This document shows positions 1-64,000 of a DNA stretch of 64,000 nt, one piece after another. Every line of letters starts with the position of its first letter. Positions within the stretch are counted from its first letter, which is position 1. The notes below the pieces were generated by a model that searched no databases, was not told the origin of the DNA, and was given only the letters and a program-made list of their open reading frames with translations. Source of the DNA: Cohnella rhizosphaerae (GTDB taxonomy: Bacteria; Bacillota; Bacilli; Paenibacillales; Paenibacillaceae); the NCBI RefSeq assembly GCF_029525575.1, contig NZ_JAPDIA010000003.1, positions 2,038,214 to 2,102,213 of the forward strand, written 5' to 3'. The position numbers and the translations under genes were made by a program.

Positions 1-423
1 CGCCCGCTGGTCGTCGTCACCGGCATCCTCAAGGAGTTCGGATGGGCGGCGATCATCTACCTGGCCGCGCTGACCGGCATCGATCCGCATCTGTACGAAG
101 CGGCCAAGATCGACGGGGCGAGCAAGCTCCGGCAGATCTGGCATATTACGCTGACGGGCATCCGGCCGATGATCGCGATGCTGCTGATCCTTCAGCTGGG
201 CAGCATTCTGGATGCCGGCTTCGAGCAGATTCTGATTCTGTCCAACCCGGTCGTCTACGGTGTCGGGGATATCATCGATACGTACGTTTACCGCGTCGGA
301 TTGCTGGAAGCGAACTATGGATTAGCCACGGCCGTGGGACTCTTTAAAGGCGTGATCGCCGCGATCTTGATCGTGTCGGCCAATCAGATCATTCGACGGA
401 CAGGAGAGAAGTCGCTTTGGTAA
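1..423 (+). CDS. Sugar ABC transporter permease, LplB type (5'-truncated by window edge)
   Basis: This is the C-terminal part of an inner-membrane permease for oligosaccharide import. It is open from base 1 in frame 1. The EAA loop that docks the ATPase is clear (EAAKIDGASKLRQIWHITL, about 95-150), followed by hydrophobic helices and the DIIDTYVYRVGL segment typical of the LplB/YtcP-partner family. The stop overlaps the TTG start of the next permease by 7 nt, so the two are translationally coupled. The cargo is unknown, but the downstream GH38 and GH2 mannosidases suggest mannose-containing oligosaccharides. The N-terminus lies outside the window. Confidence 0.9.
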   Translation, partial: RPLVVVTGILKEFGWAAIIYLAALTGIDPHLYEAAKIDGASKLRQIWHITLTGIRPMIAMLLILQLGSILDAGFEQILILSNPVVYGVGDIIDTYVYRVGLLEANYGLATAVGLFKGVIAAILIVSANQIIRRTGEKSLW

Positions 424-1363
424 ATCCACCGGTTCAAGCGGATACGAACGAATTGGCGCTCATCAACCGACCCGGAAGCTTGGACCGCAATCCGGCGTGG
501 GTCCAAACCTTGATCTATCTCGCATTGAGCGCGATGGCGCTGATCACCTTGCTGCCGATTTTGAACGTGTTCGCCATGTCGTTCAGCGAGGCGGACGCGA
601 TCTTCAAGCACCCGCTCATGATCATGCCGTACAGCTTTACCTTCGCGGCATACGAGTATATTTTTTCGACCTCGATCCTGCTGAAGTCGTTTTTCGTCAC
701 CGTCTTTGCCACGGTCGTAGGCACGCTCTGCAATCTGGCTTTTACGATAACGGGGGGCTTACTCGCTCTCCAAGACGGCCATGCCGGGCAATAAATTCCT
801 GCTATGGATCTGCATCTTCCCGATGCTGTTCGGGGCGGGGCTGATCCCGACCTACATGCTGCTCAAGGAGCTGCACCTGCTCAACAACATTTGGGTGCTC
901 GTCGTGTCGGGCATGGTCGTTCCATTTAACCTGATCCTGATGCGCAATTTTTTCTGGAGCATCCCCGAGGAGCTGGAGGAGGCCATGCGGATCGACGGCG
1001 CTTCCGATATGGGCATTTTGTGGAAAATGGTCATTCCGCTCTCGAAGCCGGCCATCGCCACGATCGGTCTATTTTACGCCGTCGCTCACTGGAACGACTT
1101 TTTTTACCGGCTTGTTTTATCTGAACGATAATACGAAATGGCCGCTTCAGGTGCTGCTTCGTTCCATCGTCATCGATATGAACGCCCTCAATACGCGGGG
1201 CGTAACGGCCGTGATCGGCCAGGACGCGACCAAGATCATGCTGACGCCGGAAAATATCAAGGCGGCGACGATCATTTTCTCGATCGTACCGATCCTGCTG
1301 GTCTATCCGTTCCTCCAAAAGTATTTCGTAAAAGGCATCATGCTCGGATCCGTGAAAGGCTGA
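417..1363 (+). CDS. Carbohydrate ABC transporter permease, LplC/YtcP type (two frameshifts)
   Basis: This is the second permease of the importer, about 315 residues after repair. It starts at TTG 417 behind a GGAGAG ribosome site. It carries the EEAMRIDGASDMGILWKMV EAA loop (about 970-1030) and ends with the family tail YPFLQKYFVKGIMLGSVKG. Two breaks are seen. A G6 run at 752-757 should be G5, which restores AYSLSK. A T7 run at 1099-1105 should be T6, which restores WNDFFTGLFYLND. Both are +1 errors in homopolymers and conservation resumes directly after each, so the gene was probably functional. The lipoprotein gene follows after 64 nt. Confidence 0.88.
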
Positions 1364-1370
1364 ACGCGTT

Positions 1371-1392
1371 GAGAGATCCGCAAGGATTTTTC
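1371..1392 (+). terminator. Weak hairpin between permease and binding-protein genes
   Basis: A short stem (GATCC/GGATT with a GCAA loop) followed by TTTTT lies between the permease and lipoprotein genes. It is short for a true terminator and could be an attenuator or RNA-stability element that sets a different dose for the binding protein. This is inference only. Confidence 0.25.
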
Positions 1393-1427
1393 ATATAAAA
1401 CAAATTGGCGAAGGGGTGTCTTGCAAC

Positions 1428-3030
1428 ATGCGTAAAAGCGGAATCATGCTGCTCGTTCTGGCGATGATGACAGCCATGTTGGCGGCTTGCTCGGGGAACA
1501 AGGAAAACGGAAAGGCGGGCGAATCGGGCTCGACGCAAGGAGGAAGCCAAGCGGCAAGCGCGTCCGCGGGGAGCAAAGAGGAGACGGCCAAGTTCAGCTA
1601 TGTGCGGCCGGTATGGGGGGCGGCCACCTATACGAAAGGCGGCGCCTACGAGAAAGAGATGTTCGAGAAAGCGAACGCGAAAATCGACGTGCAGATCATC
1701 CCGGTAACCGAATACGACCAGAAAATCATGACCGTCATCGCATCCGGCGATATTCCCGACGTGTTCTGGGCATTGGGGCCGACGGACAAGAAGTTCAAAG
1801 ATATGCAGGACCAGGGCGCCTTTTTTGAGAATTAACGATTACCTCGAGAAATATCCCGCCATCAAGGATGCCGTGCCGCAATCGGTGTGGGACACGCTGA
1901 CGGACGACAAAGGCAATATTTATTTTATTCCCAACGTATCCAATCCGCTCATTCCGATCTTCATGTATTACCGCCAGGACATCTTCGAGAGCCTCGGCAT
2001 CGCCGAGCCGAAGACCGTTCAAGAGCTGGAGGCCGCGCTGGCCAAAATCAAGCAAAGCGACGCCAAAATGATTCCGCTGACCGCCCAGGACACGATCTGG
2101 GGACTCGGCGCGCTGTCGACCTCCTTCGGATTTACGCATTTCGGCTGGGGACCGGCGACCGGCGAGGACAAAGAGAACCCGAATACGATCGTTCCTTTCT
2201 ATTTAACGAAGGAAATGAAGGACTACTATTTTTACTTGAAGGACCTCAGAGCCAAGGGACTGCTGGACAAGGAATTTCTGATGGCGAAAAACTGGGATCA
2301 CGCGAAGCAAAAGTTCACCTCCGGCCAGGCGGCGGTGCTCGGCATCAACTGGGGCTACGGTCCGGAAATTTACTCGACGCTGAAGAAGACGCATCCGGAA
2401 GCGAAGATCGGCGTTCTGCCTCCGCTGGAAGGTCCGGGCGGCGCGATGGGCGGCATTCGTCCGTTCGGCGCGTGGGACAGAGGAATGTACGTGAACGCGA
2501 AAATGGCCGATCCAGACGGATTTTTCCGCGTGCTCAACTGGACGCTGACGGAAGGCAGCGATTTTAGAAGATACGGCGTAGAAGGCAAAACCTACAACGT
2601 GGTAGACGGCAAGAAGGTGCTGCTGGGAGACGACGAGAAGGAAACGGATTACAAGACCGGCCAGATCGAGCCGCTGAAGTTCCTGCAGCCGATGTCCGAA
2701 GCGCTGGATTGGGATACGATCCAGGCCACCTACGAAGGCGCCGGGGTCGGGGAGGCGTTCGCGGAAGCCAAAGCCAAATTCGAGGCGTACAACGCCGTTC
2801 AATATCCGGAATACCGCAATCCGACCGTCTTCTCTCCGCTTGAAGTCGAACAAGGCGCGCAGCTGTATACCGATTATCTGCAATCGGTGATCGACGGCGC
2901 GATCATCAACGACAAAGTGACCGGGCAAGAATGGGATACGGCGATCGACAAGTATCTGAAGGCCGGCGGACAGAAAATCGTCGATGAAGTGAACGAGCTT
3001 CAGAAAAATAAAACGAAGCCCCAGTATTAA
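1428..3030 (+). CDS. Extracellular solute-binding lipoprotein of sugar ABC importer (one frameshift)
   Basis: This is the surface lipoprotein that captures the sugar for the upstream permeases, about 530 residues. ATG 1428 gives a lipoprotein signal peptide (MRKSGIMLLVLAMMTAMLAAC) with lipobox LAAC. It lies behind AAGGGG at about 1410; the in-frame GTG at 1416 is less likely. The body has family-1 binding-protein features: an Asp-rich IASGDIPDVFWALG segment and a C-terminal AIDKYLKAGGQKIVDEV helix. A T6 run at 1821-1826 breaks the frame; five T's restore GAFLRINDYLEKYPAI. There is no ATPase gene nearby, as usual for this family, which shares an MsmX-type ATPase encoded elsewhere. Confidence 0.9.
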
Positions 3031-3054
3031 AAAGAGGATAGGAGAATCCGGAGA

Positions 3055-5832
3055 ATGACCCTACAGCAACAGAGCAAGCAGCTCGGCAAAGTGTACGTCG
3101 TCTCTCATACGCACTGGGACAGGGAATGGTACCAGGACTTCCAAAGCTTCCGGACGCGGCTCGTCTACATGATGGACGAATTGCTGGATCGTCTGCGGGA
3201 GGATGCCGCCTACCGGCACTTTATGCTCGACGGCCAGACGATCATGATCGAGGATTACCTGCAAATTCGTCCGGAACGAAAAGAAGAGCTGTTGAAGCAT
3301 TTGCGGGAAGGCAGACTGGCAGCGGGCCCCTGGTATGTCATGCCGGACGAATTTCTCGTGAGCGGGGAGTCGCTCGTGCGCAACTTGCTGACCGGCTTCC
3401 GGCAATCGAGAAAGCTGGGATTCGAGCCGATGAAGTCGGGCTACGTGAACGATATTTTCGGGCACAACAGTCAGATGCCGCAAATTTTCCAAGGGTTCGG
3501 CATCGATAACGCGGTGTTGTTCCGCGGGTTTTACGGCAACGGGGGATCCCGCGGAAATGTGGTGGGAAGGCGCCGACGGCAGCCGATTGCTTGGTCTGAA
3601 GCTGGACGAAGACCGGTCCTACAGCGATTTTTACTTCTTCCTGCGCTGGCCGTTTCTCGATCGGGCGTTCCAGTACGAGGAGCAAGAGCTGGTCGAACGC
3701 GCCGAGGCGATGCTCGACTACAAAGCCAGACGCGCGACGACGGACATCGCGCTCAGTCTCGACGGCTGCGACCATATCGAGATCGAGCCGAATCTGGGCT
3801 GGATGCTGGACCGGTTAAACGACAGGACCCCGGGCGTGGCGTGGGAGCATAGCACGATCGAAGCTTATGTGGCGGCGCTGCGCGCCCGGATCGGCGAGCT
3901 TGAAGTGTTCAAGGGCGAGCAGCGCATGCCCGGCTACAACGGCGTCAACAACATGGTGCTGGCGAACGTGCTGTCGTCCCGCGTACATCTCAAGCAGCAC
4001 AATCAGCATGGCGAGAACCTGCTGACCGGGTGGGCGGAGCCGTGGAGCGCGTTTGCGTCGCGGGACGGACGCCCTTACCCGAAGGCGTTCCTCGACCTGG
4101 CCTGGAAGCATTTGCTTGAAAATCATCCGCACGACTCGATCTGCGGCTGCTCGATCACGCAGGTTCACGAGGATATGCTGTATCGCTTTGCCCAGAGCCG
4201 TTCGCTCGGGGAAGGCATGCTGGCCGAAGCGTTCAATTACGTGTCCGGGCATATCGCGGAGCAAGCGTTAGAGGGACGGCACGCCGTCGTGCTGTTCAAT
4301 TCGTCCCAGCGCCCCGTCGACGGCGTGATCCAAGTCGAACTGGAGCTGCCGCTCAATACGGCGGTGCCCGCCGTATCGCCGCAGATCGGCGGCGCGAACT
4401 TTAGGTTGCTGGATTCGGAGGGCCAGGAGGTGCCTTTCCAGGTCGTCGGCGTGAAGAAGCAGAGCATGAGAAGATGGCGTCCCTACCGCGATATTCCGCA
4501 CGGGGGAGCAGGTCGACAGGATCACGGTCGCGCTGAAAGGCGACATTCCCGCGTTCGGCTATACGACGTACACGGTCGATATGCAGGCGTCCGAGCCGCC
4601 GGGCAAAGGGGGAATACGGATTTCGCCGGGCCGCGGAGCCCGTACGTTATATCGGCAGCCAGCAGATCGCGCCGAACGTATGGGAGAACGGCAGGCTTCG
4701 TCTGGAAGTCGCGGCGAACGGCACGCTTGCGCTGCGCGATCTGGACACCGGCTACGAGACGGAAGGCTTGCTGACGTTCGAGGATCAAGCCGATATCGGG
4801 GACGGCTGGCAGTACATCGCGCCGGTCGGCAACGAGACGGCCAGCTCGGCGGCCGGCGGCGCGTCTGTGTCCGTCGTGCATGACGGGCCGCTGGAAACGT
4901 GTCTGCGCGTCGCGCTGCGGCTGGAGGTGCCGGAAGAGATCGCGCCGGACCGGACGAGGCGTTCGGACAAGCGGACCGGTCTCGCGGTCGCTACTTATAT
5001 CACGCTTCGCAAGAACGACCCGGTCGTCCGCTGCCGCACGGTCGTGGACAACGGCGTGCGCGACCATCGTCTGAAGCTGCTGTTCCCGACGCGCGTCGAC
5101 AGCGACCGCTACTATACCGGCACGCCTTTCGATATCGTGGAGCGAAGCGTCCGGCTTCCGGATTACAGCCGTCATATGGAGAAGGACAGCGGGATCGTGC
5201 CTTCGAACGGGCTGCTGGCCATCCGCGGCGAGGGGCATGGATTCGCCGTCTACAGCAAGGGGCTCTACGAGGCGCAACTGCGCGACGACCGGACGCGGAC
5301 GGCGGCGCTGACGCTGTACCGAAGCACGAGGGACGAGGTGCTGAGCGACGGCGGCGACGGCGGCCAACTGCTGGGACGACTGGAATTCGAGTATGCGTTC
5401 CGGCCTTTCGCGCCGGCCGACGCCTCATGGGGCGACTTGCTTGCCGAGCAGCAGCAATTCTCGCTGGGCATCCGGAGCGTGAACCGGAAGCCGGGACCGG
5501 TCGCTTTCGAGACGCTGCACAGACGGGCGACCGACCTGCCTGCCCGGCACGCTTATCTGGGCCTGACGGGCGCCGATCTGATCGTCAGCGCCTGCAAGCG
5601 GGCCGAAGACGATGCCGGCGCCTGGATCGTCCGGCTGTGGAACTGCTCGGATCGCGAGACGAGCGGTAGCCTTCGGCCGGCCGATCCCGTGATCAGGGCG
5701 GAGCGGACGAATCTGGACGAGCACACCGTCGGCACGGTCGAAGTCGAGCAGGACAACAGCTTGCGCGTCGCGGCGAAGCCCAAGGAAATCGTAACCTTGA
5801 AGCTTTGGTTTGGTCCGCAGAAGGAGCGTTGA
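3055..5832 (+). CDS. GH38 alpha-mannosidase (three frameshifts)
   Basis: A cytoplasmic alpha-mannosidase of about 925 residues with no signal peptide. The N-terminus has the GH38 zinc-site signature SHTHWDREWYQDF, and the nucleophile region is GYVNDIFGHNSQMPQIF, where the Asp of NDIFGH is the expected nucleophile. HPHDSICGCSITQVHEDM is the second conserved block. Three G5 runs (3541-3545, 4502-4506, 4608-4612) each carry one extra G; four G's restore GNGDPAEMWWEGADG, PHGEQVDRITVAL and KGEYGFRRAAEPV. Four bases separate it from the beta-mannosidase, so the two are co-expressed. With the importer it suggests intracellular trimming of imported mannosyl oligosaccharides such as N-glycan fragments. 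Confidence 0.9.
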
Positions 5833-5835
5833 CCG

Positions 5836-8429: not shown

Positions 8430-11400
8430 ATGAAAAAGTCCATTCGCAAGCTGGCGACAACCGCGATCGCAGTCGCGGCGCTGTCGCAGAGCGCCGCCGC
8501 CGCGCAGGCGAACGCCTACACTTTTTTCAGACCGGGCAAGACTATCGAACCCATCTGCATCTGCCGGTCGACGCCGCGGCTCCTTATTTGTTCAGCAACA
8601 AGGACCCTTACGAAAATGCGATCGCAAACTACGGCAACGCCGGCTACGAAAAGATGGCGATGCTTTCATTCACCCACGATTTTGACAACCGGTATGTCGG
8701 CGGCTTCTACGACGGATCGACGCACTACGATATCGTGCAGAAGGACGCCGCTGGCAATCTGAAGCAGCATCTGGGCACGCACAGCTACGTGACGCCGACC
8801 GCCGGCTGGAACGATTACGTCCGCGACCAGGCGGTCAAAGCGATCGGCAAGGGCGCGACGACGATCATTCTGGAAGAGCCGGAGCTGTTCGGCGACGCGG
8901 GCTACGAGGACGCGTTCAAAGCCGAATGGCTCGCCTATTACGGCACGGCGTGGGCCAACCCGGCCGGCAGCGAGGCCAATTTCCTCAAAGCGTCGAAGCT
9001 GCGGAGCTACTTGCTGCAGCGGGAGATCGACGCCGTCTTCGGCTATATCAAGACCCACTATCCGACCGTCAAAACGTATATCGCCGCGCACAGCCAGCTC
9101 TCCTACTTCCCCTGGAAAAATCCGTACGCAGGACAGGAAGGATTGGCGAACGCGAGCGTCGACGGCATCGTCGGGCAAGCGTGGTCCAATACGATGGAAG
9201 CCGGCGTCCTGTACGAAGGCTCGTCCGTCTCGCTGCCCTTCGAGAACGGTTATCTGGATTACAGCTACTTCGCGCAGCTCGGCAGGGCGAATCCGGGCAA
9301 AGACGTCGCGCTCATCATCGACCCGAAGGGCGACGGCTATTCGGCCAAGTCCTGGGACTGGCTGGCGGACATGAACGCCCATCAGTTGACGGCCGCCCTG
9401 TCGCAGCCGAACGCGTACCGGTACGAGATCCCGATCTGGCCGGAACGGATCATGGGCATCGACGAAAACGAAGCGCCGGAGAGCTTCAAGACCGCGATGG
9501 CGAACGAGATTACGGTTTTGAACGATATGCATAACTATACGGGCGCGATCGCGACGCCCAATCGTCCGCTGAAGGCAGGCATCCTGATCTCGGATACGAC
9601 GAACTGGCAGGCGGGCGGTCCGGGCAATACGGCCAATCAGGACAGCGTTTATTCGCTCGCGATGCCGCTGCTGCACCGCGGCTTCCTGATCGACGGCGTG
9701 CCGCTCGAAGGGATAACGGCCGCGGCGAACCCGCTCAGCCAATACGATGTCGTCTACGTGAGCTACGATCTGATGAAGCCGCAAAGCAGCGCCTACAATA
9801 TCAAGCTGCGGGACTATGTGAACGGCGGCGGCATCGTGGTCTACTTCGGCGGGCGCACGCCGTACGAGAACACGCCGAACCAATGGTGGAACTCGGGCGG
9901 CAGCAGCTACGCCAGTCCCCAGGACCACTTGCTCGGTCTTTTCGGAATCGGCGCGACCGGCCGCACGGCCGGCACGCTGTCGAACGCGACGCTGTCGGCG
10001 GAAGCCGGATCGGCGCTGGCTGCCGGCATCGGCTCGCTGCCTTCGACGTCCGGCGTCGGCTATATCGGCTACACGGGCGGCAGCTTCACGCCGATGTATA
10101 AGCAGGGGACGACGACGATCGCGTTCGAGAAAAGCTACGGATCCGGGAAGTTCGCGTACTTCGGCATCGATCCGTATTATTTCGGGAACAGCGCCGGCGG
10201 CAGCTCCAAAATGTTTAACATCATGCAAAATATCGGCTCCGTGTACAAAAGCGCGTCGGTGAGCGCGCAAAACGCGATTTCCTATACGAGAGGCCCGTAC
10301 AAAGGCATTTATTCGATCAGCGGCACGGCCGTGGAGACGGGTAAATACATCGACGTGCTCGATCCGGACCTTCAGGTCGTCACGACGCGCAAGGTCGCGC
10401 CGGGCAAGTCGGCGCTGCTGAAGGACGTCTCGGGCGCCACGGTGACGACGATCCCCCCGCGTGCTGTTCGCGCAGGGCAACAACCCGGCGATCAGCGAGA
10501 ACGCTTCGAGCACCGTCGTGACGGCCAAAGGCGCTTCGAATACGCTTGGCGCGCTCCGAATCTTAAGCAAGGACGGCCTCGTACCGCAGCTCGCGACGGC
10601 GGTGAACGGCAGCGGCCGCAGCACGCTGTATTCGCAGGAATGGGACGACGAGAGCAAGTCGGCGCTGGTCAAATACTGGAACGATCCCGGCGGCGTGACG
10701 GTGACGGTGAACTGGAGCGCCGCGGGCGCGCCGGCGAAGCTGCAGACCAAATCCGTCGACGATCGGGACGCTGCCGTCGCCTATAGCGGCGCCTGGAACA
10801 ATTGGGACGGCGACAAGCTCGACCACGCCGCGACCGAGAAGTTCAACTACACGGCGGGCGGTTATGCGGAGTTTGCGTTCACCGGCAGCCAGATTCGGGT
10901 CATCGGCAAGTACGGCGGCAATCAGGGCAAAGCCGACTTCTACGTCGACGGCGCGCTGCAAGCGTCCGACGTCGATCTGTACGCGCCGGACGCGCGGTAC
11001 CGCCAGGTGCTGTTTGCGAAAACGGGGCTGACGGACGCCGCGCATACGGTCAAAGTCGTCGTCAAAGGGACGAAAAACGCCGCCTCGACCAACGCGAACG
11101 TCGTCATCGACCGGTTCGAGTACGGCACGTCGCTCGCGACCAAGGTGGACGACCGCCACGCATCCGTCGCGTACACCGGCAGCTGGGGGCAGTGGGCGGA
11201 CGCGTCGGACTACGCAGGCACGGAGACGTTCGGCAGCGCCGTCGGCAACGGCGCGCAGCTGACGTTCACCGGCACGGCCGTGCGCGTGATCAGCAATTTC
11301 GGTTCGAACCAAGGCCGGGCCAACATCTATGTGGACGGCAAGCTGGTTCGCACGGTCGATTTGTACAGCGCCGTCAAGAAATATCAGCAGATCATCTACA

Positions 11401-14001: not shown

Positions 14002-14635
14002 ATGGAACTTCAATTGGCGCTGGATCTTGTAGATATCCCCGGAGCGAAGCAAGTCGTTGCGGAAGTGGCGGATCATATCGATATCGTGGAGATCGGCACG
14101 CCTGTCGTCATCAACGAGGGGCTGCGAGCGGTTAAGGAAATCAAGGAGGCTTTTCCGTCGCTGCGCGTGCTGGCCGATCTGAAAATCATGGATGCCGGCG
14201 GCTACGAGGTCATGAAGGCATCCGAAGCGGGCGCTGATATTATCACCGTGCTGGGCGTATCGGACGATTCGACGATTCGCGGCGCCGTCGAGGAAGCCCG
14301 CAAGCAAAACAAAAAAAATCATGGTCGACATGATCAACGTGAAGGACATCGAAGGCAGAGCGCAAGAGATCGACGCGCTCGGCGTTGATTACATCTGCGT
14401 GCACTCCGGTTACGATCATCAGGCCGAAGGCAAAAACTCCTTCGAGGAGCTTGCGGCGATCAAACGCGTCGTCAAGCAAGCCAAGACGGCGATCGCCGGC
14501 GGCATCAAGCTGGACACCCTGCCGGAAGTCATCAATGCCCAGCCGGACCTCGTCATTGTCGGCGGCGGCATCACCGGCCAGGCGGACAAGAAGGCGACGG
14601 CGGCCGAAATGAAGAAATTGGTCGGCCTGGCCTAA
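14002..14635 (+). CDS. hxlA: 3-hexulose-6-phosphate synthase (one frameshift)
   Basis: About 210 residues. It condenses formaldehyde with ribulose 5-phosphate to D-arabino-hex-3-ulose 6-phosphate, the first step of the ribulose monophosphate route, used in bacilli to detoxify formaldehyde. It begins [15 protein letters not shown] and has the orotidine-decarboxylase-superfamily motif [13 protein letters not shown], where the D-x-K-x-x-D set is catalytic. [14 protein letters not shown] and [13 protein letters not shown] form the phosphate-binding loops. An A8 run at 14311-14318 breaks the frame; A7 restores [13 protein letters not shown]. The isomerase gene starts four bases after the stop, as in other hxl operons. 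Confidence 0.92.
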
Positions 14636-14639: not shown

Positions 14640-15198
14640 ATGGAAGCGATCCAATACGTCGCCGAGATCGTCAAGGAGCTCCAGCGTTCGGCCGAGCAGA
14701 TCGCCGATGCGGAAGCCGAGACGCTGGCGGATCTCATTTTGCAATCGAACCATGTATTCGTCGCCGGCGCAGGCAGATCGGGCCTGATGGGACGGGCCTT
14801 CGCCATGCGTCTGATGCACACCGGGGCCAACGCCTATGTGGTCGGCGAGACGATCACGCCCGGCATCGGCAAAGGCGATGTACTGATCATCGGAACCGGC
14901 TCGGGGGGAAACGAAAAGCTTGATCCCGATGGCCCAAAAAGCGAAAAGCTTCGGCGCATCCGTCGTGGCCGTCACGATCGCGCCCGAGTCTACGATCGGA
15001 AGCCTGGCAGACGCGGTGGTCAGGCTGCCCGGATCGCCCAAGGATCAAGCAAGCGGCAGCTATTCGACCATTCAGCCGATGGCTTCGCTGTTCGAGCAGA
15101 CGCTGTTGATCTTTTACGACGCCGTCATTCTCAGAATGATGGAGAAGCAGGGACAGGACAGCGGCCGGATGTACGGCAGGCATGCCAACCTGGAATAG
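14640..15198 (+). CDS. hxlB: 6-phospho-3-hexuloisomerase (one frameshift)
   Basis: About 185 residues with a single SIS (sugar isomerase) domain. It converts hexulose 6-phosphate to fructose 6-phosphate, returning fixed formaldehyde carbon to glycolysis. Motifs are [20 protein letters not shown] (SIS phosphate loop), [17 protein letters not shown] and the C-terminal [21 protein letters not shown]6 run at 14903-14908 is one base too long; five G's restore [17 protein letters not shown]. It lies four bases after hxlA and is followed by a terminator. Confidence 0.92.
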
Positions 15199-48934: not shown

Positions 48935-50029
48935 ACCGAATTCGTCTCGTCCACCGCGACCATCTGAGCTGCGAGCCGATCCTTCGGCGCTGTCCGAACG
49001 GCGAGCTGATCTGCGTCGGCCAGGTCGGCGACATCACGGAGCCGGCGCCCGGCAATCGGGTCGTCGTTTTTCATAGTAAAGATAACGGAGAAACCTGGTC
49101 GGAGCCGTTCCCGATCTATCCGGAAGACGGCCGGGCGGTTTACGCCACGGAGCTGATGCTGCTGGACGGCGTGCTCTACGCTTTTTTGACGCTGCACAAC
49201 GGTCATTTCGTCAACTGGCGGTGCACGACGATGCAAAGCCGCGACAACGGCTATACGTGGGAGGACATCGGCATCCATCCCGCCCTGCCGAATTTTTCGT
49301 TCGCGCGCGGGATGATTCGGCTGAGCAACGGCGACATCGTCATTCCGTATCAGTACTACCCGATCTCCCCCGAAGAAAACGACCGTCTGGCGCAGTCCGG
49401 CTTGAAGATATGGGAAGCGCGCATCTCGCATGTGGAAAACGGGGTGCTGATCAGCAAGGACAACGGCCGGACCTACACCCGGCACGAAGGGCCGCGGACG
49501 CCGATCAAGGGGGGAGGGGCTGCCCAAATGGAACTGGCCTGAGCCGACGCTCGCGGAGCTGTCCGACGGCACGCTCGTCATGCTGCTGCGCGTCAACGAA
49601 TCCGGCTGCCTGTGGCGAAGCGAGTCGCGGGACGGCGGGGCCGGTTGGAGCGCGGCCGAGCGCACCGACATTCCGAATCCGTCCAACAAGCCGAAGCTGA
49701 TCGCCATGCCGGGCGGCCGAATCGCGCTCATCCACACGCCGAACGGCAAGCACGGCATGCTGGAGCGTAATCCGCTGGCGGTCTGGATCTCGGACGACGA
49801 CATGCGGACCTGGGGCTACAAGCGGATCGTGAGCGATTTTCCCGGGGGCTTCTGCTATGCGGACGGCATCTGCGAGGAGGGGGGCAGGCATATTCGATTC
49901 ACGATCGAGTACAGCCGCTTCAACATTTTGTTCGTCGATCATGAGGTAGAGTTAGAGATCGAGGCAGAGGCAGAGGCAGAGGCAGCGGCAGAGCCAAAGG
50001 AAGCGGAAGAGCCAAAGGCAGAGGTTTAA
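48931..50029 (+). CDS. Sialidase-fold (BNR repeat) protein (one frameshift)
   Basis: About 365 residues, no signal peptide. A six-bladed propeller of the sialidase superfamily: Asp-box motifs SKDNGETWSEPF, SRDNGYTWEDI, SKDNGRTYTR and a weaker SRDGGAGWSAAE; the start has HLSCEPILRRCPNGELICV. A G6 run at 49509-49514 is one too long; G5 restores KGEGLPKWNWPEPTLAEL. The C-terminus is an acidic Ala/Glu repeat tail (EIEAEAEAEAAAEPKEAEEP) from a 6-bp GAGGCA tandem, unusual and perhaps polymorphic. Cytoplasmic members near catabolic genes can be glycosidases or lyases; sialic acid is not implied, as no sialate genes are nearby. Confidence 0.8.
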
Positions 50030-51434: not shown

Positions 51435-52686
51435 TTGCGTTATGCGATCGGAAGCGCGGTAATCAGCGCATGTCTGCTGCTCGGTACGACCGGACCGTCT
51501 ATAGCATCGGCGGCATCCTCCCAGTCGAAGAGCGGCGCCGCGGTGAAAACGGCTGACGTGAAGGCGAGCAAGACGTACGCGCAGAGCACGGTCGACCGTC
51601 TGAACGTACGGACGTCGCCGAAGCTGACCGCGTCGGTCATCCAGATGATCGGCAAAAGCGGCAGCTACGAGGTGCTGGACACGCAGGGCGAGTGGCTGAA
51701 AATTCAATTGTCGGACAAGCAGGCGGGCTGGGTGTTCGCCGATTATATCAAGCTAACGACTAAAGGCTCAACAAGCGGCGCCGTTACGGCGGTCGTCAAG
51801 TCGAATACCGGGCCATCGGTCGTGAAGATCACGGACGTCACCAACCTGCGCAAGGGGCCGAGCACCGAGGACGATATCGTAGGCAAGGCGCAGCCTGGAG
51901 ATTCTTATCCCATCCTCGAGAAGGTGGGGGGATTGGTACCGCATCTCCCGCGGCGCGAAGGGGACGGCCTACGTGGCGGCCTGGGTCGTATCGACGAGCG
52001 GCGGCGCGGACGATTCCGGTACGAAGACGGCGAACGCGGCGAGCGGCAGGCAAGTTTACATTTATCATACGCACAATCGGGAGTCCTGGAAAAACGTCGC
52101 GACGCAAACCAAGGGCTCATCGATCGACGACCCGAAGGTTAACATTACGCTCGTGGGCGAACGGCTGGGGACCGCGCTGCAGAAAAAAGGCGTCTCGGCG
52201 TTCACGGCGGACGACGACGTTACGGAGCGGCTCGCCACAAAGAACTTGAGCTTCTCGCAGTCGTATACCGAGTCTCGTAAAATCGTGCAAACGGCGATGA
52301 AAGAGAACGCGTCGCTCGGTTACTTTTTCGATATTCACAGGGACGGCGACGTACCGCGCAAGCAGACGACGGTGACGATCGGCGGCAAGACGTATGCACG
52401 AGTGCTGTTCGTCATCGGCATGGGCAACGCGGATTACAAAGCCAACAAGCAATTCGCTGAGGCGCTCAGCGAACGCCTGGAGAAGAAATATCCGGGCTTG
52501 TCGCGAGGCGTGCTGATGAAGGACAAGGCGCACGGAGACGGCGAATACAACCAATCGCTGTCGCCGAACAGCATGCTGCTCGAATTCGGCGGCGCCAACA
52601 ACACCTTGCAGGAGGCGCTGAATACGGCCGACGCGTTCGCCGATATCTTCGCCGCTTATGTCGGGACGTCGAAGCTGTCGATCTGA
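51435..52686 (+). CDS. SpoIIP-type cell-wall amidase with two SH3b domains (one frameshift)
   Basis: About 416 residues. TTG 51435 gives an export signal (LRYAIGSAVISACLLLGTTG, with an SAA cleavage region). Two bacterial SH3 wall-binding domains follow (RLNVRTSPKLTASVIQMIG; NLRKGPSTEDDIVGKAQPG), then a SpoIIP-like N-acetylmuramoyl-L-alanine amidase with VYIYHTHNRESW, LGYFFDIHRDGD and the Glu of MLLEFGGANNT. SpoIIP normally carries a membrane anchor, so the SH3 pair is a variant architecture suited to vegetative or spore wall turnover. A G6 run at 51926-51931 is one too long; G5 restores KVGDWYRISRGAKGT. Confidence 0.87.
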
Positions 52687-52869: not shown

Positions 52870-53719
52870 TCATAACCACATTTTTCGATACTGCAGCGGC
52901 GTGCGATTTTCGTATTTCTTAAAAGTCACAATATAATGGCTAACGCTATCAAAGCCAACGAGCTCGGCAATTCTCTCTATTGATTTTGTTCGTTCTCGGA
53001 GCAAGAGCGATTTGCTCATTGTAATACGCTGTCTGATTAAATATTCAATGGGAGAGCACCCGGTCCAAAGTTTGAAGGCTCTCGTAAAGTGGGATTTGCT
53101 CATGTTTGCTTCTCGGGCCAAGTCGTCTACGGAAATAGGTTCGGCATAACGAATTTGCAGGTATTGAAGTGCTTTCTCGAGGCCATCGCTTTGACGCGCC
53201 AGAATACCATTGCCGGAAGGGGGAGGTTGTACCTGCTGTGAAAACCTCCATTAGTAACTGAAAGATATGAAGTGCGGCTTCTGCTTCAAGGTTAACTCCG
53301 TTGCCTCTAATGATCTCGATAAGACTTCGCTGGTGCTGAATGAACCTGTGTGGAACCGGAAGCCGAATGACGGGTCCGTATTTATCGTGTATAGCTTGCA
53401 TATAAGAGGCACTTCCGTTTCCATCGAAATGTACCCAGCCTACGTCCCATTGCTCATTCGAAAGCGTCCCGTACTCATGATATTTCCGGCAATCGATAAG
53501 AATGACGGAATCAGCCAGTAACTCATATTCCCTGTCTTCGTGCTTAAGATAGCCGCGACCGCTAAAGGTGTATTGAAATAAATAACTATCAAACCCTTCC
53601 CGCGTAATGACGTAATCGTCGTCATACTTCCATCTTCCGATATGTTGTACATACAAAAACGTAGACCTAGCCAACTGACTTGGTGTGTAGACAAGCATTC
53701 CATAATCTGTTGAATCCAT
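52870..53719 (-). CDS. AraC-family regulator (one frameshift)
   Basis: About 282 residues. GAGGGG precedes ATG 53719. Cupin-type sensor (YLFQYTFSGRGYLKHEDREY) and C-terminal double HTH (ISVDDLAREANMSKSHFTRA, IERIAELVGFDSVSHYIVTF) are present. A G5 run at 53219-53223 (C5 on this strand) is one too long; C4 restores TTSPSGNGILARQSDGLEKA. Base composition is noticeably more AT-rich than in neighbouring genes, which may mean recent acquisition. It is divergent from the DUF4185-like gene and probably its activator. Confidence 0.87.
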
Positions 53720-53847: not shown

Positions 53848-54923
53848 ATGAGCGGCGATTTTCCAATCAGCGAAATGATTGAATGCGCGATCATGGACAG
53901 CCGAAGATATCACAAAGCCGACGGAGACATGTGGCCGATTACTTGGGCGGCGGACGGCCATTGTTACGGCGCGGCAGGGGACAATCTTGGAAGTCCAATG
54001 AACGTATGGCGGATTGAAGGCCATCCGGGCGAACCATTCTGGGGGGCCGTATCCTCATCTGTTTCTCATCGACAACCTGCCGATCGACCCCAAGGAATAT
54101 TGCCAGCGTCCCCATGTGCATCCGCATTGGGGAGTCAAGCCGGCGAGCTTGCTGAGCTTGAACGGTGTATTGTATTTCGCGGTGCAGTTGATGAATTTCG
54201 GAGATAATCCGTCTTTTAATCGCCAACATAATATTTCCAGTTGGATCATTACGAGCGATGATAACGGCAACACATGGAACCGGGAGGCGACTCGGCAGGA
54301 TTTCTTTGACGGCCGATTGGCATCTCCGCATTTCATCCAATTCGGGCAGGATTACGAGGGGGGCCAGGGACGAGTTCGTCTATGCGTATTTCCCTGCCGC
54401 GACGGACGGGAATAGCTATTGGTGCAACGGCGATTACCTGCTCCTGGGAAAAGTCCGCCGAGATCGCATCCTCCAGCGCGATGCGTGGACGTTCTATTCG
54501 GGCGATGAGCATGGCCAACCGGTCTGGCATTCGGATGCGGACCGCGCAGCTCCGGTATTTGAATATCCGCTGATGACGGGAGAAAATCATGTTTCGTTCA
54601 ATAAAGGCTTAAATCGGTATATCATGGGCAACTTTTCATTCACGGATAAACAAGGCAACCCTCGTCCTTATCACCAGCAGCCGGGAGATCCCATTGACGA
54701 CAGCCGGTTTCCGAGCCAGTTGACCTTGTTCGAGGCTCCGAATCCATGGGGGCCTTGGTCCCTGTTCCATCAGGACAACAACTGGGGAAGCTCAGGTGAC
54801 TATCAGCCCATATTTCCGACGAAATGGATCAGCGAAGACGGCAAGGAAATGTGGATGGTGTCTTCCGGCAGCGAAGAGGATTACAATTTTACTTTTCAGA
54901 AAGTCCGGTTGAAGCTGCGCTGA
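53848..54923 (+). CDS. DUF4185-like beta-propeller protein (two frameshifts)
   Basis: About 358 residues. ATG 53848 has GGGGTG upstream; ATG 53815 is in frame but lacks a ribosome site. DUF4185-like blocks: DMWPITWAADGHCYGAAGDN, SWIITSDDNGNTWNREATRQ, YLLLGKVRRDRILQRDAWTF and SLFHQDNNWGSSGDYQPIFP. This resembles five-bladed propellers of glycoside hydrolase or arabinofuranosidase clans, function unknown. Breaks: G6 54041-54046 and G6 54358-54363, each +1. No signal peptide, so it acts in the cytoplasm. A TATAAT at about 53800 is a -10 candidate without a good -35, fitting activation by the AraC protein. Confidence 0.78.
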
Positions 54924-56831: not shown

Positions 56832-57858
56832 ATGACCGTTTCCGCGCGCAGGAAAGTCGACTTTTTGCAATTGGCGCCCTATGTCCGTTATATTCACGAA
56901 TACGACGGACCGGGCGACATCAAGGTGCCGCCCCGCTTTATCTACGATCACGAGCTTGTCTTCTTCACGCATGGCGGCGGCGTCTACGCCATCGATGGCG
57001 TAACCTACGAGGTCGGCGCTGGCGACCTGCACGTCATTCGGCCCCATCAGCGCAATTCCTGCGTTATTCCCCCCCGGACACGCGCGTTATTTTGCGGTTC
57101 ACTTCGATTTTCTGTACATGGGCGACACGCTCGATTTTCCGCCGGAGGTGTACACGGACTGCGATTATACCCAGGATGCGCTCCCCGTCGAGGAAGGCCT
57201 GGACGAACGACCGCTCGTCGAGCCAAGCGAAGTGGAGTTTCCGTCCTTGATCCGAACCGGCGACCCGCTGCATTACGAGCGACTGTTCACCGACCTGCTG
57301 CGCGCGTTCACCGAGCGGACGCCCGGCTTCCAGTTGGAGATGCGCGCGATTTTGCTGAAAATATTGCGGCTCATGTACCTGGATACCGCTTATGCGGAAG
57401 AGAACGCCAACAAGCGGCAGGGGCGGAAGGAGATCGACGAGGTTATCCGCTACTTGCGCGACCATTACCGCGAGAGCGTCGACTTCGCGCGGCTGGCGGC
57501 CGATCTGGCGCTATCGCCGAACTATTTGCGCACGATGTTCAAGAAAGCGACGGGAAAATCGCCGTTGGAATTCGTCATCCAGTGCCGCATGGAGAAAGCC
57601 AAGGCGCTGATTCTGGAAGGACGGCATCCGATCAAGCGCATTAGCGAGATGGTCGGGTACGACGACGCGCATTATTTTAGCCGGCTGTTCAGGCGGTACG
57701 AAAAAAGATCGCCGAGACAGTACGCGGACTTGATGCTTCCTATCGTAAAATCGTCCACCTTTTCCGATATCCCCTCTATCTACAATCCGGATCCCCGCGC
57801 CTATAATGGAGGCAAATCAATGAAGCGTGTATTCGAAGGAAAGCAGTCCAAGAATTAG
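56832..57858 (+). CDS. AraC-family regulator (one frameshift)
   Basis: About 341 residues. ATG 56832 follows GGGGTGA. Cupin sensor: LAPYVRYIHEYDGPGDIKVP, DHELVFFTHGGGVYAIDGV and VGAGDLHVIRPHQRNSCVIP. Double HTH: SVDFARLAADLALSPNYLRT and IKRISEMVGYDDAHYFSRLF. A C7 run at 57069-57075 is one too long; C6 restores VIPPGHARYFAVHFDFLYM. It precedes the small ORF and kinase by under 100 bp in the same direction, so it may be co-transcribed with the two-component pair. Confidence 0.87.
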
Positions 57859-57874: not shown

Positions 57875-57952
57875 TTGAAAAAGTCGCCATTCGAAAAAGA
57901 GACCATGCTCGTTCGCGATGCCTATGAAGGCAAGGAGGGGCCGGCATGCTAG
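57875..57952 (+). CDS. Small ORF (25 codons) coupled to sensor kinase gene
   Basis: TTG 57875 lies seven bases after AAGGAGG and encodes about 25 mostly charged residues (LKKSPFEKETMLVRDAYEGK). Its stop overlaps the kinase start by seven bases, so it may act as a leader that couples translation. Without it the strong ribosome site at 57861 would serve no gene. No homology recognised. Confidence 0.4.
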   Translation: MKKSPFEKETMLVRDAYEGKEGPAC

Positions 57953-59679: not shown

Positions 59680-61230
59680 AAATGCTGGTCGTGGACGACG
59701 AACGGGAAATTCGAGACTATATCGCAGGTATGCCGGAATGGGCGGACATCCGCTGCACCGTGGCGGCGGTCGCCGCGAACGGCGCGGAAGCGCTGACGCT
59801 CGCGCGAACCATACGGCCGGATATCGTGCTGACGGACATCCGCATGCCGGTGATGGACGGCATCGCGCTCGCGGAAGCGATCCGCAAGGAGCAGCCGGAG
59901 CTGCCGATCGTTTTTCTGTCCGCCTACAACGAATTCGAGTACGCCAGGCAAGCGATCCGCCTCGGCGCCGTGGACTTTATTACGAAGCCGTTCGTCGCGG
60001 CCGATCTGGTATGGGCCGTGAAGCAGGTGCAGCAGCAGCTCATGACGGAGTGGAAGCACCAGGAGGCTTTTTTTTGCCTTGTTCGGCGGGCCGGCGGAGC
60101 GCGACGAGGAGAAGCTGGCGTGGCTGCGCGACCGCAATCAGCCGGACGAGCCGTTCATCCTGCTCTACGGCGAGCTGGATACGGTCGCGGGGGCGGCCGG
60201 CGAGCGAAGTCCGTTCCGCGAGCGCGCCGTACTGGCGGCGGTGATGCCGGCGCTGGAGCGAAGCGCCGTTCCTTATTGGACGCAGGGAACGAACAGCGGT
60301 CTCTATGTGTTGCTGCGCGGGAGCGGGATCGATCCCGCGAGACTGCAAGAGGAGGCATTCGAGCTCGCCAAGCAGATGGTGGAGCTCGGAGGCGCCGCAA
60401 GCGAGCTCTCCCTGTCGGTCGGGATCGGACGGGCCGAGCCATCGCTGCTTCGCTTGCCGGACGCGCTCCGGCAGATCGCGGAATGCATGGAATACCGGAT
60501 GCTGATCGGGAAGCGGTCCGTCATCGCATACGATGCGATCCGCTCGATACGGAGCGAGAAGGACCGGCAGCTGTTGCTATCTACCAACCGGCTGGAGGAG
60601 CTGCTGCGCGTCGGCGATCGCGACGGCATCGCGGACGCGCTGCGCGAGGCGTACCGGACGATGCTGACCGTGGGCGCCGGCAAGCCGGACATTCAGCATT
60701 TTTGCATCGACCTGGTCGAGAAGGCGGAGTACGTGATGGAGGAATTCGGCCTCTCGATCGATCCGAAGGACAAGCTGCGCATTCGGGAGAAGGTGCTATC
60801 CAGCGTCATCCTTACAGATATGATGCGGGATATCGAGCAGCTGCTGCAGGGCAGCGCCACCCGGATCGGCACGCTGGTCGAGCAGGCGCCCAAGCGGCTC
60901 GTCGCCGAGACGAAGGCGATCGTAGGACAAGCGTACGAGGACGAGCTGACGCTGCGGATGGTCGCCGAACGGCTGAGCGTCAATTATTCCTATCTGAGCC
61001 GCGTGATCAAGAAGGAGACCGGCAAAAACTTTTCCGATCTGCTGTGGCTCACCCGCATCGAGGCGGCGAAGGCGAGGCTGCTGAGCGAAGACTTGAAGGC
61101 GTACGAGGTTGCTTATGCGGTCGGGTTCAAAAACTACGCGCACTTCAGCCTGCTGTTCAAGAAGGTCGTCGGGATGTCTCCGAGCGCCTACAAGCTCCAT
61201 GCATCTGAGCAACGCGACGGAGGGAAGTAA
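59676..61230 (+). CDS. YesN-type response regulator with AraC output domain (one frameshift)
   Basis: About 517 residues. ATG 59676 is ten bases after AGGAGG and overlaps the kinase stop. Receiver: MKMLVVDDEREIRDYIAGMP, phospho-Asp in DIVLTDIRMPVMDGIAL, Lys in DFITKPFVAADL. C-terminal double HTH: TLRMVAERLSVNYSYLSRVI and AYEVAYAVGFKNYAHFSLLF, ending VVGMSPSAYK. A T8 run at 60068-60075 is one too long; T7 restores HQEAFFALFGGPAERDEEKL. Confidence 0.89.
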
Positions 61231-61273
61231 AACACAGCAATGATAAACCAGAATGCAAGTATCCGCGCGTCGT

Positions 61274-61288
61274 TAGAAAGCGGTTACA
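61274..61288 (+). promoter_or_regulatory. cre-like site upstream of the WbsX-like gene
   Basis: TAGAAAGCGGTTACA matches WTGNAANCGNWNNCW except for one position (A for T at the second base). It lies 55 bp before ATG 61343. Confidence 0.4.
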
Positions 61289-61342
61289 ATCGGGCTAGCA
61301 AGTTATCCTGTTGCAACTAGAGCCAGACAGGAGGGAGCTCGA

Positions 61343-62428
61343 ATGGGCAGCGGCTACGAGGTGGCGGTTTATTACTTTCCGCAGTGGCATGCGGATCCGA
61401 AGAACGAAGCGGGCAAAGGGAAGGGATGGACGGAATGGCCGTCGCTACGAAGTGCCCAGCCCCGCTTTCTAGGGCACGAGCAGCCGAAGCGGCCGCTCTG
61501 GGGCGAGATCGACGAAGCGGATCCGCGCGTGTCCGAAATGCAGATTCGGGAGGCGGCCGACCACGGCATTACCTGCTTTCTGTACGATTGGTACTGGGAT
61601 ATGGGCGGGGGAGAGGGTCCTTTCCTGCAGCGCGCGCTGGAGGAGGGATTCCTGCAGGCGGCCAACCGCGATCGGCTGAAGTTCGCCCTCATGTGGGCGA
61701 ATCACAACGAAGTGTCCCGGGCGCGGTTCGACGCGATGACCGATTACATCGCGGCCCATTATCTCGGTTATGACAACTACTTGACGATCGACGGGAAGCT
61801 GTACTTCTCGGTCTACGAGTGCATGACGCTGATCCGCGGGCTGGGCGGCATTGAGGCGACGGTCGAAGCGATGGCCGATTTTCGCCGCAAGGTCAGGGAA
61901 GCCGGCTATGCGGATCTGCATCTCAATTTTGTCGAGTGGGGATTAAATCCGCGGCATGCCGACATCATCGGCTCCGACGCGAACGCGCTGCTCGCCAGGC
62001 TTGGCGGGAACAGCGTTACGTCTTACGTGTGGCTGCACCATGCGGAGCTGGAATCGTTCCCCGGCGTCGACTATGCGTCGTGGTCGCGGCAGGCGACGGG
62101 GATGTGGGACGACTTGCAGGCGCGATTCGCCTCCGTGCCCTATTATCCGAACGTGACGATGGGATGGGACCCGAGTCCGCGCTGCGATCCGGACCTGCCG
62201 TACGTCAGAGGGGATTATCCGTATACGCCGGTCGCGACGGACAATACGCCGGCCGCTTTTGAAGCGGCGCTGCGAGAAGCCAAAGCGTATTTGGACCGCA
62301 TGCGGCTCTCGCCCCCGATGCTGACCGTCTATGCATGGAACGAATGGACGGAAGGGGGATATCTGGAGCCGGACACCAAGCACGGCATGGGTTATCTGGA
62401 AGCGATCCGAAACGTATTTCATTCTTGA
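61343..62428 (+). CDS. WbsX/GH99-like glycosidase-fold protein
   Basis: Intact, 361 residues, AGGAGG upstream, no signal peptide. WbsX-type (GH99-related) blocks: VAVYYFPQWHADPKNE, WTEWPSLRSAQPRFLGHEQP, HGITCFLYDWYWDMGG, KFALMWANHNEVSR and the C-terminal YAWNEWTEGGYLEPD. The paired acidic residues late in the barrel (NEWTEG) are the likely catalytic group by analogy with GH99 endo-mannanases. Members occur in both polysaccharide synthesis and degradation clusters. Here the neighbours favour degradation. Confidence 0.85.
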   Translation: MGSGYEVAVYYFPQWHADPKNEAGKGKGWTEWPSLRSAQPRFLGHEQPKRPLWGEIDEADPRVSEMQIREAADHGITCFLYDWYWDMGGGEGPFLQRALEEGFLQAANRDRLKFALMWANHNEVSRARFDAMTDYIAAHYLGYDNYLTIDGKLYFSVYECMTLIRGLGGIEATVEAMADFRRKVREAGYADLHLNFVEWGLNPRHADIIGSDANALLARLGGNSVTSYVWLHHAELESFPGVDYASWSRQATGMWDDLQARFASVPYYPNVTMGWDPSPRCDPDLPYVRGDYPYTPVATDNTPAAFEAALREAKAYLDRMRLSPPMLTVYAWNEWTEGGYLEPDTKHGMGYLEAIRNVFHS

Positions 62429-62447
62429 CCGAGAGGGAGAGATTCAG

Positions 62448-64000
62448 ATGCGAAAAATCGTTTTCTTTTGCGTATTGTTCGGCTCTATGTTGGGATTGGC
62501 GGTGCTGGGGGGGGATTCTCCGGCACCCGGACGGCGTATGCCGCCGATTATTCGGTTCAGCAGTGGCAGGCGGTCGAAATTACGCTGAACAGCTCCGTTG
62601 CTTACGCGGATCCGTTCAACGGCGTGGACGTGACGGCAACCTTTACGGGGCCGGGCGGCACAGTCATCACGCGTCCGGCGTTCTGGGACGGGGGCAGCGT
62701 ATGGAAGATCCGCTTCGCGCCAACGAAGACCGGCAGCTGGACGATGACGACGGCCGCCACGGATACGGCGAATACGGGCCTGCACAACGTGACGAAGACC
62801 GTAGATGCCGTGAGCTATACGGGCAGCAAGGATATCTACAAGCACGGCTTCTTAAAAGCGAGCACGAATGGCCGTTACCTCGCCTACGCCGACGGTACGC
62901 CGTTCTTTTACCTCGGCGATACGCACTGGATCCTGCCTCATGAGCGGTTCTCCACGTCGAACGCGACAGGCGTCGCTTCGCAGTTCAAGTACACGGTGGA
63001 CAAAAGGGTCGCCCAAGGCTTCACCGTCTACCAGTCTGAGCCGATCTGGCAGCCGCATGGCGGCGGGACGCACGCAGGAGCCGACGAGGAAGCGGTCGCC
63101 AACCTGAGCGACGGCTTTACGAACGCCGATCTTGCAGGCTTCGCGAACCTCGACCGGAAGTTCAAGTACATCGCGGATCAGGGGCTCGTCCATGCGAATG
63201 CGCAGGTGAGCTGGGCGAACGATCCTGCAAGCTACGGCGTCTACACGAATGCGTATATGGCCAAAATCGCGCGTTACTGGGTTGCCCGCTACGGGGCCTA
63301 TCCCGTCATCTGGACGATCGCGCAGGAAATAGACAAAAATCAATACGGCACTTATAATGCGACGACGATCCAGAAATGGTACGCGGTCGGCCAAAGCATC
63401 TCCGACAACGACGCGTACAACCATCCGCTGCTGCCGCACATGGAAGATACGAGCTACACGGTCGCCTCGACCTCGTGGTGGGCGAGCAAAGCCTATCACG
63501 ACGGCTGGGCCGTGCAATGGCAGGGCGACATGACCGGGATGAGCAACGCCAAGAACTTCTGGTACAATCCCGTCGCCAAGCCTTCGGTTCTTTATGAGAG
63601 CGCTTACGATCAATTCTGGACCGACTCCAATGGGGCGTTAGGCGCGGCCTACAAGGCGTTTCAATACGGCATTTACGGCTATGGCTACGGGGCGGCCGGC
63701 GTGTGGAACGACATTTATGCCAAGACGGGAGAGCCGGACGATTATGGCACTGGCTATGAGATGCCGGCCAAATATTACTGGTGGTACGACGGCGCCAACC
63801 TGGCGACCGGGGATCGGCTCTCTTATTTCAAAGCGTTCTATACGAGCCTCGAATGGTGGAAGCTCACGCCGCGGTTCGATGACAACGCTTGGGGTTCTTT
63901 CAGCGACGGATCGCGTTCTCTTCTCTCGTCGGACGGGAACAGCGTCTACGTGGTGTTTTTCTTTAACGGCACGACGGCGTCGGGGACGCTCAAGCAGATG
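62448..64000 (+). CDS. Secreted DUF5060/DUF4038 glycoside hydrolase (frameshift; cut by window end)
   Basis: At least 517 residues. Signal peptide MRKIVFFCVLFGSMLGLAVL with TAYAAD cleavage region after repair. The DUF5060-like N-terminal beta domain (FTGPGGTVITRPAFWDGGSV, WKIRFAPTKTGSWTM) is followed by a DUF4038 barrel: YADGTPFFYLGDTHWIL, RVAQGFTVYQSEPIWQPHGG, HANAQVSWAND, YPVIWTIAQEID and SVLYESAYDQFW. The barrel type includes apiosidase-like and other exo-glycosidases. The G8 run at 62507-62514 needs six or nine G's, so the net shift differs from the usual +1. The 3' end lies beyond the window. Confidence 0.85.

Follow-up and report, generated by a model that had tools for sequence, protein, structure and literature searches.

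Frame breaks in the 64-kb window

The window, as we call the whole 64-kb stretch of the Cohnella rhizosphaerae assembly (G000) analysed here, carries genes for a GH38-type protein, a histidine kinase, a protein of 2026 aa carrying a LamG-type domain, an amidohydrolase, AraC-type regulators and a response regulator, and reading frames are broken in these and other genes on both strands (Table 1). Frame changes at the protein level and DNA alignments with the closest relatives, merged by hand, give 38 frame breaks, close to the roughly 40 of the original prediction, which had been made from the letters of the window. They fall in about 25 of the 41 genes with a comparable relative and leave 16 unbroken, both counts being rough, as each gene was represented by its longest open frame and several frames so chosen are antisense or wrong. 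Intact genes and hits on both strands had been foreseen, but the broken genes are fewer than the approximately 30 suggested. The expectation that most genes here would be annotated as pseudogenes is about right (25/41).

The breaks are nearly uniform in direction, with 36 at +1, one at net +2 and one at -1. Their proposed location in homopolymers holds for 31 of the 36 +1 events, which lie in runs of at least five identical bases; it does not cover the other five, in runs of two or three bases. All 15 runs named beforehand exist with the base and length given; 14 start where they were placed, and a G6 starts at 41898 instead of 41899. A protein-level frame change is the basis for 36 of the breaks, while the two at 45510 and 45647 were recognised by aligning the DNA and reading all three frames.

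Table 1. Frame breaks in the window, with run lengths in relatives or the basis of the call
Position	Run	Change	Gene or context	Gene strand	Relative or basis
752..757	G6	+1			frame break
1099..1105	T7	+1			T6 in G010
1821..1826	T6	+1			frame break
3541..3545	G5	+1	GH38-type gene		
4502..4506	G5	+1	same GH38-type gene		G4 in G010
4608..4612	G5	+1	same GH38-type gene		G4 in G010
8522..8527	T6	-1	sole -1 of window		T7 in G010
10453..10458	C6	+1			frame break
14311..14318	A8	+1			frame break
14903..14908	G6	+1			G5 in G010
17882..17886	C5	+1	histidine kinase gene		
18536..18542	G7	+1	same histidine kinase gene		
19422..19423	TT after C5	+1	short run, same histidine kinase gene		
20019..20024	G6	+1			vs L017, L018; G6 also in L016 (same pipeline)
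22228..22230	CCC	+1	short run		
25967..25975	T9	+1			frame break
28632..28637	T6	+1			T5 in G026
28926..28930	T5	+1			T4 in G010, G026
31163..31167	G5	+1			G4 in G010
32323..32324	TT	+1	short run		
32438..32439	AA	+1	short run		
36612..36617	G6	+1	2026-aa LamG-type gene		
39684..39686	GGG	+1	short run, same LamG-type gene		
41898..41903	G6	+1			G5 in G010
43853..43857	G5	+1			G4 in G010
45510..45514	G5	+1	close to end of 319-aa gene		DNA only
45647..45652	G6	net +1	amidohydrolase gene		DNA + three-frame reading
47377..47381	C5	+1			C4 in G010
48279..48285	T7	+1			T6 in G010
48721..48725	G5	+1			G4 in G010
49509..49514	G6	+1			frame break
51926..51931	G6	+1			frame break
53219..53223	G5	+1	AraC-type regulator gene	-	
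54041..54046	G6	+1			G5 in G010
54358..54363	G6	+1			G5 in G010
57069..57075	C7	+1	AraC-type regulator gene	+	
60068..60075	T8	+1	response regulator gene		T7 in G026
62507..62514	G8	net +2			frame break

Several candidates were omitted from the 38. Frame changes near 17464, at about 19922-19927 and at about 20060-20088 were rejected as window breaks, since the DNA alignment places the extra bases in L016; the +1 at 20019 was retained. Also left aside were a frame change at 51420 (which precedes the probable start and shows up in no comparison but that with G026), a short antisense frame (22952-23308) and the +1 runs outside genes or past gene ends at 3029, 11590, 12289, 15328, 28978, 29533 and 32860.

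Compared with the hybrid assembly G010, our main reference for run lengths, the window shows 28 single-base insertions and one deletion in runs of at least four bases, and 21 insertions and 20 deletions in runs of fewer than four. With strict flanks, 18 of 263 window runs of four or more are +1, one is -1 and 244 are the same. For the control pair G026 and G010, none of 59 runs in the window region changed.

Run-length changes across the genome and its relatives

Across 417 kb aligned between G000 and G010, 98 of 1,535 runs of at least four bases are +1 and nine are -1, with one each at +2, -2 and -3. The +1 share rises with length (27/1,118 at length 4, 36/322 at length 5 and 25/71 at length 6), and most runs of four or five are unchanged (1,090/1,118 and 280/322). 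The excess is present in all five sampled stretches, the rpoB and dnaA regions among them; the stretch on contig C9 has 9/233 runs at +1 and 5/233 at -1. Scaled from the 98 strict-filter calls, the +1 errors would number about 2,000 in the genome. A frame-changing difference occurs in G000 for 102 of the 191 G010 open frames inside the alignments, a figure that we set aside as an error count because natural indels, from stretches that are divergent or intergenic, and probably spurious frames enter into it.

Coding and noncoding runs do not differ significantly in their +1 share (21/968 vs 6/150 at length 4, p = 0.16; 29/279 vs 7/43 at length 5, p = 0.30; 24/70 vs 7/20 at lengths 6-7, p = 1.0). 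At lengths 4 and 5 noncoding runs have a slightly higher rate than coding ones (pooled odds ratio coding to noncoding 0.67, z = -1.5), so that a minor fraction of the +1 calls may be genuine indels under negative selection. Sequence context matters as well: where the base after a run of 4-7, read on the purine strand, is the other purine, the run is +1 in 72/579 cases vs 22/951 otherwise in G000, and in 29/210 vs 5/341 in G009, for A runs and G runs alike. G runs seem to be +1 more often than C runs, but the difference lacks significance in the window (p = 0.69) and in the larger set (p = 0.06).

G009, the assembly of C. ginsengisoli DSM 18997T, was published with the same Nanopore-only pipeline as that of C. 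rhizosphaerae, and against G010 it has 30/434 runs at +1 and 2/434 at -1. A length could be scored in both G000 and G009 for 297 runs: the two genomes share +1 at 15, each has a further 8 of its own, and the remaining 266 are +1 in neither (odds ratio 62, Fisher p = 2.9e-14). Because 8 of the 23 G000 sites in this set are not +1 in G009, the errors are partly, and not fully, fixed by site. The control genomes show hardly any +1 against G010, the one of these assemblies known to be hybrid (G026 1/572, G031 2/234, G020 0/44, G024 0/58); in the larger comparison G026 has 6/572 runs at -1. The G000 excess appears as well when G010 is left out (44/643 vs G026, 16/221 vs G031). G009 is nearer to G031, though G031 is without the extra base at seven of the eight scorable sites where G000 and G009 agree. 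The +1 calls follow the sequencing method, not nearness of descent. This comparison of run lengths with related genomes had been proposed as a check in the original prediction, and the runs are shorter in the relatives, as it anticipated.

Assembly provenance and the origin of the extra bases

G000 consists of 8,497,463 bases in nine contigs, with C9 at 2,277,727 bases, figures that match the genome size, contig number and N50 published for C. rhizosphaerae DSM 28161T. The agreement of these numbers shows that G000 is the Nanopore-only assembly. According to the published methods, Flye assembled it from Nanopore R9.4.1 reads and Medaka followed, without Illumina data, in a study that includes both Nanopore-only and hybrid assemblies. 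The Medaka step means that the assembly was polished, with its own long reads only, and not "unpolished" as first described; the window errors are therefore a residue of long-read polishing and not random raw-read noise.

Essential genes are affected too. G000 has dnaN in two pieces, where each of the 36 further genomes has one full-length piece; adk is split in G000 and G009 but intact in all 35 others. The dnaA match ends at profile position 422 of 437 in G000 and reaches 437 in G010 and G026. We also considered rplK as a broken gene, from a +1 at a T7 in a long G010 open frame, and rejected it; the family search shows rplK whole, and the T7 therefore lies outside the conserved protein. In the same work, an NCBIfam match was absent for most of the 20 G010 proteins searched.

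We therefore hold, with a probability of about 0.97, that systematic errors in the consensus of the Nanopore-only assembly (R9.4.1, Flye, Medaka) produced the frame breaks and that the real genes are intact. Over-calling of runs, the cause named at the outset, agrees with the single sign, the dependence on length, the recurrence under the same pipeline and the near absence in four relatives. Base calling and consensus would add one base at a fraction of runs, with a chance set by the length of the run and the bases beside it. Judging from the sequences compared, the true run would be the shorter one, and the step that adds the base is presumably Guppy, Flye or Medaka. Run length alone is insufficient as an account, because the window also has one -1, one +2 and five +1 at runs of two or three bases, and the dnaA break is a further case.

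One variant is compatible with consensus error: modified bases in native DNA, and not plain context, would shift the nanopore signal. The recurrence of +1 sites in two related species could be read this way, and the available text of the Homopolish paper (PMC8011154) names species-specific modification as a source of residual Nanopore errors. However, the context is the generic junction of a purine run and the other purine, with A and G runs alike, and a longer motif is not visible by eye in the listed +1 sites. We consider this variant unlikely, and we are equally doubtful that the recurring sites mark base modification or another clade-specific DNA feature disturbing the signal in both species. 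If modification were the cause, the error map would show indirectly where modified purine runs lie.

Real run-length mutations after the loss of mismatch repair, with homopolymers slipping and genes broken in the living cell, are much less probable still. Slippage would likewise grow with run length, and a C6 with +1 lies in a gene about 3 kb from mutS (a gene without family assignment in the naming search). However, mutS of G000 is open across its matched length, slippage should give both signs while 98 of the changes are +1 and nine are -1, and a living cell would have broken dnaN and adk. Moreover, coding and noncoding rates show no significant difference, and the sites recur in G009 though its nearer relative G031 mostly lacks the extra base.

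Gene decay, by which the window would be a decaying region rich in pseudogenes, seems scarcely credible, although 25 of the 41 comparable genes are broken. The +1 excess extends to every sampled stretch, and in the broken genes most of the divergence is still at the third codon position, with 0.050, 0.029 and 0.141 changes per codon at the first, second and third position in 23 genes with breaks, and 0.047, 0.041 and 0.135 in six without. Among the 82 segments aligned (20,297 residues in all), six contain an inner stop; we judge one of these to follow a break, one to precede a likely start and four to sit in frames taken as antisense or wrong, which leaves no convincing substitution stop among these segments. 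This upholds the original prediction in disfavouring decay.

Programmed or tolerated frameshifting, in which long runs would be read through by ribosomal or transcriptional slippage, could draw on the 15 +1 sites common to two species and on the essential genes that must function, but its chance is negligible, given that most runs of four or five are unchanged, that noncoding DNA, where no reading occurs, has +1 calls at least as often as genes do, and that such calls are nearly missing in G026 and G031, going with sequencing method and not with descent.

Consequences and comparison with known systems

The window breaks almost certainly belong to a known type of artefact, and the annotation of the public C. 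rhizosphaerae genome will be wrong. Two public type-strain genomes are affected (C. rhizosphaerae DSM 28161T and C. ginsengisoli DSM 18997T); care is therefore needed when pseudogenes are counted, genes called absent or pangenomes compared on their basis. The presence of Nanopore-only beside hybrid assemblies in one study makes this a clean example of how an artefact can be recognised without reads. Its marks are one sign, length dependence and like rates inside and outside genes, and further the involvement of essential genes and recurrence by method instead of descent.

The errors resemble the Nanopore R9.4 homopolymer indels described in the available text of the Homopolish paper (PMC8011154), which remain after polishing, shift frames and are detectable through related genomes. 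In its examples, as far as that text goes, Flye drafts have mostly insertions, like the assembly here, and polishing cut the insertions and often raised the deletions. The insertion excess that survives Medaka in G000 is therefore not the textbook outcome, and it looks like weak polishing. Unlike those examples, almost all changes here are +1 after Medaka, with many sites common to two species. The Kastor paper (PMC12007338), in the portion available, likewise describes apparent pseudogenes from homopolymer indels, in a small genome, with a non-random k-mer context. In its main example, deletions outnumber insertions in a long-read assembly, whereas insertions prevail in C. rhizosphaerae, mostly at junctions of a purine run and the other purine.

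Frame breaks in the window and in essential genes

Frame changes in protein alignments, combined manually with DNA alignments, give 38 breaks across 25 of the 41 comparable genes, and both strands carry broken genes. The original prediction of about 40 breaks in about 30 genes on both strands was thus close for breaks and strands, with fewer genes affected. All 15 homopolymer runs that it named are present, and the pattern it described is real: 36 breaks are +1 (the run is one base longer than in the compared relative), 31 of these in runs of at least five bases, while one break is +2 and one -1. Among the broken genes are a GH38-type gene, a histidine kinase, an amidohydrolase, two AraC-type regulators, a response regulator and a large protein with a LamG-type domain. 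Run length does not account for five of the +1 breaks, which lie in runs of two or three bases (see coordinate table).

The window occupies positions 2,038,214-2,102,213 of contig C5. A search with named records places it in Cohnella, to which its top three named hits all belong, led by C. ginsengisoli with 79% amino-acid identity. Two close relatives, C. hashimotonis F6_2S_P_1T and Cohnella genome G026 (92-94% DNA match over the queried 4.6-kb stretch), align to 50,426 and 14,985 window bases, respectively. Against C. hashimotonis, the DNA alignment shows 49 single-base insertions and 21 deletions, divided into 28 and 1 in runs of at least four bases and 21 and 20 in shorter runs. The gene content of the window (1-64000) resembles sugar uptake and breakdown. 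It includes a solute-binding protein and a WbsX-type protein, enzymes of GH38 type and weakly LacZ-like ones (below curated cut-offs), as well as histidine kinases and AraC-type response regulators.

Broken dnaN, dnaA and adk are also found in this genome, all outside the window, while rpoB, mutS and rplK were checked for breaks and are all open. A cell with broken dnaN and adk is not expected to live, and the fault therefore lies in the sequence and not in the cell.

Coordinates of affected genes and of +1 breaks at short runs in C. rhizosphaerae DSM 28161T (C3 and C8 are contigs)
Feature	Position	Observation
dnaN	C8:8405-9539	two pieces; whole in 36 other genomes of the genus
adk	C3:18459-19092	split at profile position 87, also in C. 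ginsengisoli; whole in 35 others
dnaA, extra T in two-base run close by	C8 about 9811	match ends early
+1 break	window 19422	2-3-base run
+1 break	window 22228	2-3-base run
+1 break	window 32323	2-3-base run
+1 break	window 32438	2-3-base run
+1 break	window 39684	2-3-base run

Distribution of extra bases among genomes

The excess of +1 runs appears in all five stretches sampled from the C. rhizosphaerae genome (runs of at least four), and is hence not confined to the window. Across the 417-kb sample, 98 of 1,535 runs are +1 and nine are -1 (p 5e-20), with +1 rates of 2.4%, 11% and 35% for runs of four, five and six bases.

Run lengths in relatives bear out the original prediction, since the controls G026, G031, G020 and G024 (further Cohnella genomes) have nearly no extra bases against C. 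hashimotonis. The assembly of a second type strain, C. ginsengisoli DSM 18997 (contig L016), shares the excess. In both assemblies it recurs against other references, indicating that the choice of C. hashimotonis is not decisive.

Runs one base longer (+1) or shorter (-1)
Comparison	Run length	+1	-1	p
C. rhizosphaerae, C3 stretch	at least 4	20/358
C. rhizosphaerae, C8 stretch	at least 4	6/76
C. rhizosphaerae, C9 stretch	at least 4	9/233	5
C. rhizosphaerae, upstream C5 stretch	at least 4	5/106
C. rhizosphaerae, window	at least 4	18/263
C. rhizosphaerae vs C. hashimotonis (hybrid)	at least 4	58/1,039
C. ginsengisoli vs C. hashimotonis	at least 4	30/434
G026 vs C. hashimotonis	at least 4	1/572
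G031 vs C. hashimotonis	at least 4	2/234
G020 vs C. hashimotonis	at least 4	0/44
G024 vs C. hashimotonis	at least 4	0/58
C. rhizosphaerae vs G026		44/643	6
C. rhizosphaerae vs G031		16/221	0
C. ginsengisoli vs G031		18/288	1
C. rhizosphaerae, coding; noncoding	4	21/968; 6/150		0.16
C. rhizosphaerae, coding; noncoding	5	29/279; 7/43		0.30
C. rhizosphaerae, coding; noncoding	6-7	24/70; 7/20		1.0

Compared with each other, C. rhizosphaerae and C. ginsengisoli are even (15 +1 and 14 -1 in 581 runs). Among the 297 runs scored in both, the extra base is shared in 15, restricted to either one in eight each, and found in neither in 266. Among these genomes C. ginsengisoli is closest to G031 (4.6% difference over 56,087 common columns; 6.7% from C. 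rhizosphaerae), yet G031 has no extra base at seven of the eight scorable sites where the two type strains agree on +1. The extra bases track sequencing method rather than descent.

Sequence context and coding status

Runs were oriented to the purine strand and split by whether the other purine comes next. In C. rhizosphaerae, runs of four are +1 in 26/407 cases when it does and in 1/711 otherwise, and runs of four to seven in 72/579 and 22/951; the same split in C. ginsengisoli gives 29/210 and 5/341. A purine run meeting the other purine is thus the place of extra bases, nearly exclusively for runs of four (26/27). The counts for G026 (1/250 at purine junctions, 0/392 elsewhere) and G031 (2/91 and 0/142) are too few for a test; all three of their +1 differences sit at such junctions. 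Such a pattern is expected if the length errors made in base calling or by the consensus model depend on sequence context. Novelty is not claimed for this junction rule, our literature search on it being limited.

Genes are expected to purge real frameshifts strongly. For runs of four to seven bases in C. rhizosphaerae, coding and noncoding +1 rates do not differ significantly, with a noncoding lean at lengths four and five.

Sequencing method and known assembly errors

According to PMC10308117 (2023), Flye and Medaka were applied to Nanopore R9.4.1 reads to assemble C. rhizosphaerae DSM 28161T (9 contigs, 8,497,463 bp, N50 2,277,727) and C. ginsengisoli DSM 18997T (8 contigs, N50 2,121,708), and C. 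hashimotonis F6_2S_P_1T (N50 8,667,868) is a hybrid assembly that includes Illumina reads. With Nanopore-only and hybrid assemblies side by side, that study contains its own control. The published total size of C. rhizosphaerae and the three N50 values agree with the assemblies used here; C. hashimotonis was compared as 2 contigs, and the same text gives 8. The original prediction of over-calling in an unpolished assembly was right about the cause, but the methods as published there describe long-read self-polishing.

A limited literature search found no paper linking C. rhizosphaerae with frameshifts. The frame breaks are an artefact of an already known kind: homopolymer indels that remain in Nanopore assemblies and disrupt genes are well known (PMC8011154, PMC12007338). 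In the former, insertions dominate Flye drafts and were lowered by polishing, whereas in the main example of the latter deletions exceed insertions.
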